Below, piece after piece: positions 6,806 to 58,559 of a stretch of 64,000 bases of DNA. The stretch is taken from positions 186,001 to 250,000 of the forward strand of contig NZ_JANSKA010000002.1 of the NCBI RefSeq assembly GCF_024741235.1. The letters run 5' to 3'. Every line of letters begins with the position of its first letter. Position 1 is the first letter of the stretch. The notes under the pieces are model-generated. The model did no database searches. It had not been told where the DNA came from and was given only the letters and a program-made list of their open reading frames with translations. The stretch is from Tractidigestivibacter montrealensis (GTDB lineage: Bacteria; Actinomycetota; Coriobacteriia; Coriobacteriales; Atopobiaceae). Made by a program: the position numbers and the translations under genes.

Positions 6806-7570
6806 ATGAGCGTCGAGAAGGTCATAGTCGCGGAGCCGCTGCTGTGGGGCGGTCAGGGCTTTGCCATGTTTGGACCCTGGCACCTGCTCTGGCTTGCTAT
6901 CTGCGCGGCGGTCATCGCGCTTCTCGTCCATGGCTATCGGAGCCTTCCCGCAGACAACTCCTGGCACGGCGGCAGGCGCTGGCTCGTCCTCGCTGCCGCC
7001 ATCGTCCCCAACGCGCTTCTGCTGTGGGGAGACGTACTCAAGGTGCAGACGGGGACCTTCTCGCCCAACTGGTGGCCGCTCCACCTGTGCAACATTGCCG
7101 AGTACATCTGCCTATGGCATGCGCTCGCCCCGTCGCGCGTGACTCGCGAGTTGCTGCTGTGTTTTGGCCTCACCGGCGGCCTCTGCGCCATGCTCTTCCC
7201 TGGCTGGACGTACTGCCCGCCGTACACGCTCCCCTGCATCAGCGGCTTCATGGAGCATGCGTTCATCTTCTCCGTCTCGCTCATGGCGCTCGACGACCCT
7301 CACAAGGCCCCAAAGTGGCGCGACGCGTGGTTCTCGCTCGCGGCATCTGCGCTCTACCTGGCCTTCTTTAGGTGGTTCAACGGAGTGTTTGGTACCAATT
7401 TTGGTTTTGTGACAAGCCCCGCCGTGGGTTCGCCGCTCGAGTGGTGGGAGCGCGCCTTTGGCAACCCCGGTTACCTCGTGCCGTATATGGCGTCGTTCGT
7501 GGTGGCGGTTGTGTTGCTGCACGCATGGCAAGCCTCGCGGTGGCGCAGCGTAGAAGGAGACGCGTCGTGA
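6806..7570 (+). CDS. YwaF/TMEM164-type membrane protein (TIGR02206-like)
   Basis: Predicted polytopic membrane protein of 254 residues with about seven hydrophobic segments, for example LLWLAICAAVIALLV and SFVVAVVLLHAWQ. The pattern FGPWHLLWL near the N-terminus and WPLHLCNIAEYI in the middle match the bacterial YwaF/TIGR02206 family, whose function is unknown. The start at ATG 6806 follows a GGGGGG run. The stop overlaps the next gene's GTG by 4 bp, so the two are likely co-translated. Assignment is by pattern recognition only. Confidence 0.7.
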   Translation: MSVEKVIVAEPLLWGGQGFAMFGPWHLLWLAICAAVIALLVHGYRSLPADNSWHGGRRWLVLAAAIVPNALLLWGDVLKVQTGTFSPNWWPLHLCNIAEYICLWHALAPSRVTRELLLCFGLTGGLCAMLFPGWTYCPPYTLPCISGFMEHAFIFSVSLMALDDPHKAPKWRDAWFSLAASALYLAFFRWFNGVFGTNFGFVTSPAVGSPLEWWERAFGNPGYLVPYMASFVVAVVLLHAWQASRWRSVEGDAS

Positions 7571-8118
7571 GGAGCGTTGCGCATCTCGACATCCTGGGTG
7601 ACACGCCGCTTACGCGCCGCGTGGTGACCCTCTCGGCAGCAATTCTCGTCGTGGGCCTTCTGGGCGAAATCTACCTTGTGGTGACGCACGGGTGGGGCAT
7701 GGCCGTTGGCGCGTGGATGGCCGTCTATGTGGCGGCGACGGTTGCGGCGCTGCCCGTGCACGAGCTTGTCCACGCGGCAGCGTTTCTGCTGCTGGGACGC
7801 GGCCGGGTGCGCATTCGCTTTGGCTACGAGACGGGGATGCTCTACACCCGCGCCGAAGGCGACCCGCTCACTCGAGGCGGCTTTGTGGCGGTGCTGCTGG
7901 CGCCGTCGGTGCTTGTCACGGCAGCGTTGGTCCTGGTGGGCAATGCGGTTGCCGGGCCGGCTCTTGCCTGGGCGCTTGCGTGGACGCACCTCTCGGGGTG
8001 TGCCGGCGACCTGGCCATGGTTGCATGCATTGCGCGCATGCCCGGCTGCACGCACGTGCGCGACACAGACACGGGCGTGGAGCTTCTCGCCAATGACGGT
8101 GATGGTGACGGCGCATAG
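7567..8118 (+). CDS. Putative membrane zinc metalloprotease, DUF3267-like
   Basis: A 183-residue protein with about four hydrophobic segments. It has an HExxH-type zinc motif at HELVH, in a hydrophobic context (AALPVHELVHAAAFLLLG) typical of membrane-embedded zincins such as DUF3267. The GTG start at 7567 overlaps the upstream stop (GTGA). No partner or substrate is evident. A later His/Asp zinc ligand is plausible near HLSGCAGD. Function as a protease is inference from the motif. Confidence 0.65.
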   Translation: MRSVAHLDILGDTPLTRRVVTLSAAILVVGLLGEIYLVVTHGWGMAVGAWMAVYVAATVAALPVHELVHAAAFLLLGRGRVRIRFGYETGMLYTRAEGDPLTRGGFVAVLLAPSVLVTAALVLVGNAVAGPALAWALAWTHLSGCAGDLAMVACIARMPGCTHVRDTDTGVELLANDGDGDGA

Positions 8119-8119
8119 C

Positions 8120-8225
8120 TGCAAATTCCGATCGGTTAGGGTGCTCTAACCAATCTAATAATGCAGGTACCTTGGCATCTTGCAAATTTCGATTGTTTAG
8201 CCCCCTCTAACCAATCGAATAATGC
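8120..8225. repeat. Paired 45-bp hairpin repeats with 61-bp period (locus 1)
   Basis: Two imperfect 45-bp direct repeats (8120-8164 and 8181-8225) agree at most positions. Each contains a small hairpin; in copy 1 it is GGTTAG-N6-CTAACC, in copy 2 TTTAG-N6-CTAACC. The TTAG cores lie exactly 61 bp apart. A related pair with the same 61-bp core spacing occurs at 58404-58517. The element lies immediately after the putative metalloprotease stop codon; nothing else is seen between it and 8371. Confidence 0.8.
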
Positions 8226-8371
8226 TCGGACGAGAAGAAGGTCGTGGCCAGCGCTGCGGAGGATCGTGGCGCCATCACCTTACGTTCTCTTTGCGTGCTT
8301 CTCGCCGCAAGCTTGCCCTGGCTGCACTATCGTGTGTGGGGCAAACTTTTTGGCGGAACGCTGGGACCGGG

Positions 8372-28185: not shown

Positions 28186-28308
28186 TCGTATCCGCAGGGG
28201 GCGGCTTTTCTCACTTGCGAGCAGGTCGAGGTCCATCCGCCGGTAGGTCGCGGCCAAAGTCGTGGTCAGCCGCCTTGGGGGTCCGCGGGGAATTTCGCTG
28301 CTCCGGCG

Positions 28309-58356: not shown

Positions 58357-58403
58357 GACGCTGTCTTGGCTGTGGCGTTGCGGCGCAATTCGAATGCCGC
58401 GCC

Positions 58404-58517
58404 TTCTCGCCGGTTAGACCGCCTTAACTGTTCGGAATCCTCGGCATGCCCGCAATGCCGCGCGATTTCGCCCTTTAGGGGGCTCCAACCGTTCGGAAAA
58501 TTCCTAACCGGCGAGAA
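58404..58517. repeat. Paired TTAG/AACC hairpin element with 61-bp period (locus 2)
   Basis: Two units with TTAG cores at 58414-58417 and 58475-58478 (61 bp apart), as at 8120-8225. The whole is flanked by a perfect 14-bp inverted repeat, TTCTCGCCGGTTAG (58404-58417) and CTAACCGGCGAGAA (58504-58517). It lies between the convergent fusion gene and rpmB. Confidence 0.8.
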
Positions 58518-58559
58518 TCCGCGGCAAACCCCGCACCGCTCCGCACCCCCCGCCGTCAC

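Follow-up and report, generated by a model that had tools for sequence, protein, structure and literature searches.

A family of paired intergenic hairpin repeats with a 61-bp module in Tractidigestivibacter montrealensis and its genus

Relation to known repeat systems

Most of what is known of REPIN-like doublets comes from gammaproteobacteria with a RAYT, and the BOX elements of Streptococcus pneumoniae are modular intergenic repeats in which the number of internal modules is variable. The window analyzed here, a 64,000-nucleotide stretch of the genome of Tractidigestivibacter montrealensis, carries two paired hairpin elements (locus 1 and locus 2; Table 1) belonging to a family of short intergenic repeats, specific to one genus of gut bacteria, that had not been recognised before. 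Like BOX, this family is modular and intergenic, with a variable number of modules; we know of no sequence relation between the two. Our search of the literature on repeats in Olsenella or Coriobacteria found nothing relevant.

REPINs are the closest known kind. In both, short palindromes form doublets outside genes with one strongly favoured spacing, a hallmark of REPINs (the doublet distances of P. fluorescens REPINs peak at 71 and 110 bp, those of the present family at 61 bp; PMC3116915). Conserved ends, a variable interior, a long hairpin and the presence of singlets and clusters alongside the doublets are further shared features. However, REPs are inverted in REPINs, whereas the units described here are direct; REPINs are tied to RAYT, whereas no element of this family lies beside a RAYT-type gene; and the family has no GTAG head, while its loop is constantly 6 nt of random sequence. 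Thus, the elements act like REPINs but were not classified as such, since they have no GTAG head, their units are not inverted and they are not associated with a RAYT.

Similarity to REP/BIME sequences (PMC2817692, PMC8266576) concerns the extragenic location, the arrangement of imperfect palindromes in arrays and a conserved stem mismatch; such a mismatch is needed by E. coli TnpA-REP in the REP hairpins that it recognises (PMC8266576). In contrast to the present family, BIMEs alternate in orientation and bear a GT(A/G)G head, and RAYTs are flanked by their own REPs (PMC2817692, PMC8266576), whereas the RAYT types found here bear other palindromes. Neither a GTAG nor a GGAG head was present at the stem foot of our consensus, in which TTAG adjoins the loop instead.

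Architecture of the paired elements

The first-pass annotation of the window had placed the cores 61 bp apart at both loci, which agrees with the positions of the loops (8140/8201 and 58418/58479). It had also described a 14-bp perfect inverted repeat at locus 2 (58404-58417/58504-58517); this repeat exists, but is the inner part of 23-bp terminal repeats. BLAST matches between locus 2 and other copies run from 58393/58394 to ~58526 and, since they end at its edges, this locus was defined as a 132-bp element bounded by terminal inverted repeats of 23 bp. Unit 2 of locus 1 contains a conserved T/C mismatch (GTTTAG against CTAACC). The core TTAG-N6-YTAACC occurs nine times in the window against 0.66 expected, and at most three times in 100 shuffles (up to one mismatch permitted, both strands of the palindrome counted).

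Table 1. Parts of the two paired elements identified in the window
Feature	Position	Strand	Remarks
Locus 1, paired element of subfamily A	8120..8226	+	begins 1 nt past the stop codon of the upstream ORF 7372-8118
Locus 1, unit 1, imperfect palindrome	8120..8165	+	loop GGTGCT at 8140-8145
Locus 1, unit 2, imperfect palindrome	8181..8226	+	loop CCCCCT at 8201-8206
Locus 2, element of subfamily B	58395..58526	+	132 bp, TGCCGCG...CGCGGCA
Locus 2, left 23-bp terminal inverted repeat	58395..58417	+	contains the 14-bp repeat noted earlier
Locus 2, right 23-bp terminal inverted repeat	58504..58526	-	
Locus 2, unit 1	58398..58443	+	loop ACCGCC at 58418-58423
Locus 2, unit 2	58459..58504	+	loop GGGGCT at 58479-58484

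Alignment of 73 pairs revealed the architecture arm (23) - N6 - arm (23) - N9 - arm (23) - N6 - arm (23), in which a loop (6), an arm (23), a spacer (9) and a second arm (23) make up a 61-bp module. Each unit is an extragenic imperfect palindrome of 46-52 nt; REPs, too, are extragenic imperfect palindromes, 20-50 nt in size. The loops and spacers vary in sequence but are fixed in length (9 nt in 43 of 50 non-redundant spacers), and 23 of 24 aligned hairpins retain the T/C stem mismatch (GTTTAG facing CTAACC). The asymmetry of the arms defines an orientation, so the paired units can be recognised as direct repeats; most of the oriented pairs have this direct arrangement. The arms of subfamily A resemble TGCAAATTTCGATCGTTTAG/CTAACCGATCGAAATTTGCA and those of subfamily B resemble TGCCGCGcGATTTCGCCGTTTAG/CTAACCGTTCGGAATCCGCGGCA. 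Elements of subfamily B have sharp edges and terminal inverted repeats of 23 or 42 bp, and optional 19-nt outer extensions give them discrete lengths of 113, 132-133 or 151-152 bp.

Across the genus, neighbouring TTAG-N6-CTAA cores less than 300 bp apart are separated by 61 bp in 64 of 91 cases, by 62 bp in 11 and by 60 bp in three, a distribution that excludes chance as the source of the 61-bp spacing; distances of 71-72 or 50-51 bp are rare. The earlier suggestion of a constrained geometry is therefore strongly supported: subfamilies A, B and D have different arms but share the 61 bp, and the distance in family C is 60-61 bp.

With RNA parameters, both loci fold as one long hairpin, while with DNA parameters locus 1 forms two separate hairpins. 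The two loops within a locus are more alike than expected (2.66 of 6 positions versus 2.07 by chance, with no permutation reaching 2.66), as expected from duplication or conversion of modules. Kissing of the paired N6 loops was considered and rejected, as their complementarity is not above chance.

Distribution and turnover within the genus

A scan of the genome and its relatives, named in the first-pass annotation as a check for further copies, found many. A covariance model built from 14 units detected ~54 distinct units, most of them paired, at 32 intergenic loci of the 2.46-Mb genome. Among 40 relatives, all eight members of the genus (Olsenella/Tractidigestivibacter, a name taken from the titles of the records) gave matches and the 32 genomes from other genera gave none. 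The exact pattern was found at 65 loci among ~85,000 prokaryotic species genomes. For 61 of these loci the record title names Olsenella, Tractidigestivibacter, 'Jeddahella massiliensis' or uncultured Coriobacteriaceae, and the remaining four do not exceed chance expectation. No matches were found in the viral contigs scanned, so a viral origin was rejected.

None of 59 elements lies within a called gene; their contexts are tandem (22), convergent (11) or divergent (6), as judged from the heuristic calls of a crude gene caller. The flanking genes are unrelated (e.g. valS, glutamate dehydrogenase, a glnQ-like ATPase, a dapD-like gene and thiamine diphosphokinase). A regulon of related genes was rejected, since they have no pathway in common.

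At many orthologous sites, the subfamily, the number of units or their orientation is not the same. Downstream of the transporter gene of L047, the element belongs to subfamily B in T. montrealensis, to A in genome G007 and to family C in G002. Similarly, the site downstream of the glnQ-like gene is occupied by A in some species and by B in others, with flanks 90-96% identical in most comparisons. At the locus 2 site the A/B element is missing in two species, one of which carries family C. At locus 1, close relatives carry the same copy, loops included, and it is the arms that decay while the loops remain unchanged. Over orthologous copies, arm changes numbered 37/1196 versus 23/273 for loops and spacers in a rough hand count of 13 hand-selected pairs, not all of them independent. 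Sites are occupied in most species and presence is conserved between species; selection acting on the site may be another reason for this. A search for an empty/filled site pair at base resolution gave no clean pair, which may reflect how the loci were chosen.

Two other sites deserve mention. At L029:2284-2332 and its orthologs (L098, L113, L119), a third unit with the stem GAGCGGTTAG/CTAACCGCTC is far better conserved than its neighbours in four species; its minus strand carries a T-run, and it is possibly a recruited terminator. At L036:2181-3661 and its orthologs (L073, L075, L110, L125), one site holds two elements ~1.37 kb apart; in several of the species the two are similar to one another, which suggests concerted evolution.

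The spacing is also found with other sequences. In G005, the genome that diverges most within the genus, arrays with different outer arms (TTACGG/CCGTAA; subfamily D) keep it unchanged, and a five-unit array, read by eye from the sequence, is spaced 61/60/61/61. The palindrome of family C, TCCGGCGAC-N5-GTCGCCGGA, has no likeness to the TTAG core; it is present in 14-47 copies in each of seven genomes, in two copies in G005 and hardly at all elsewhere. Pairs of full family C units are 61 bp apart in all four cases, and the recurrence distance of the arms is 60-61 bp in 24 of 39 cases and 65 bp in seven. Given this second class, the agreement in spacing is good but inexact. Within the window, palindromes of family C, a second genus-specific intergenic repeat, occur at 28301, 37024, 45108 and 45170, the last two being ~61 bp apart. 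In 400 kb sampled from each of two other genera, the same geometry gave no 61-bp peak; the sample of the T. montrealensis genome used in this comparison includes a masked 20-kb stretch (runs of N).

One trans-acting system with a 61-nt ruler might be common to the sequence-unrelated palindrome families A/B, D and C, although we hold this to be doubtful. If true, it would represent a REPIN-like mobilisation system that has neither GTAG heads nor a RAYT flanked by REPs.

Proposed origin and alternative explanations

We consider that the elements, which resemble small selfish DNAs of the REP/REPIN kind, probably constitute a genus-specific, non-autonomous, REPIN/BIME-like family of intergenic palindromic elements, which would have spread by transposition. 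The intermediate may have been a single-stranded hairpin, processed by an enzyme, of the HUH type or another, that needs two units at fixed spacing. Copies would decay after spreading, arrays would gain or lose whole 61-bp modules, and effects on host genes would be incidental, or recruited later.

The main rival is a host-recruited two-site element, i.e. a sequence-specific DNA-binding protein or a nucleoid protein that binds two TTAG-N6-CTAA cores 61 bp apart, with the site under selection and its sequence being swapped. Such a protein, already suggested by the first-pass annotation, would account for the exact spacing across subfamilies, including D with its changed outer arms, for the occupancy of the sites in most species, and for arms that, among orthologous copies, vary less than the loops and spacers. 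However, the flanking genes share no pathway, two species have no A/B element at locus 2, helical-turn alternatives to the spacing (71-72 or 50-51 bp) are rare, and at locus 1 it is the arms that decay around unchanged loops. While the constrained spacing stands, the dispersal, genus restriction, subfamily replacement and unrelated flanks fit a REPIN-like mobile element better, so we give host binding a minor share of the probability. A classical DDE-type MITE, i.e. a deleted insertion sequence, would explain the terminal inverted repeats and discrete lengths of subfamily B. It is nevertheless highly improbable, as no target-site duplication was detected (a 2-bp match in one of 32 elements, the same as in shuffles), subfamily A has no such terminal repeats and no parent insertion sequence was seen.

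A structured RNA in untranslated regions, acting in stability, attenuation or processing, had also been proposed. The predicted folding is strong (z from -4.2 to -6.5 on both strands) and the pairing persists from one subfamily to another (A, B and D), its covariation score being reached by only 2 of 500 shuffles. This between-family signal comes mainly from one A/B split, with relatedness uncontrolled, and folding on both strands is a property of any palindrome. The compensatory changes sought within subfamilies did not go beyond the family consensus (p from 0.04 to 0.98), no Rfam match was obtained, orientation is independent of transcription (six sites to four) and divergent intergenic regions are occupied too. 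An RNA function is thus very unlikely.

A mobiliser of the REPIN-like elements was sought in the genomes of the genus and none was found. RAYT-type genes are present in one or two copies per genome, except in G005, which has none and few elements. Two such Y1 transposase genes (L008, L009 and L140-L148) have conserved positions in the genus. No unit was located within ~1.5 kb of the RAYT-type Y1_Tnp loci examined, and the genes that were read out carry their own palindromes (TGAGACAAAGGGACAGTCCCTTTGTCTCA and a CCCCGGCAATGGAATCCC-type repeat). Neither type explains all copies, because one type is the sole one in G001 and the other the sole one in G002 and G003. RAYT was rejected as the mobiliser, since both types bear palindromes of their own and neither is common to all element-rich genomes. 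The 6-bp variable centre led us to consider a core site of a tyrosine recombinase (such as dif or attC), where the cognate enzyme would act at the 6-bp overlap; integrases are encoded in all genomes.

Abundant doublets in Coriobacteriia whose exact module length is retained while the arm sequences differ, with no adjoining RAYT, would show that fixed-distance hairpin pairs exist outside the RAYT system, and the family offers a natural set of variants for finding what measures 61 bases.

A further repeated sequence, the 9-mer CTTCTCGCC, is present in 24 copies in the window (e.g. at 8083, 8298, 8462 and 58403) against 1.26 expected, a ~19-fold excess. It is the top 9-mer in 464 kb of the genome (109 copies), is half as frequent in two other genera, and is possibly a Chi-like or codon-driven motif.
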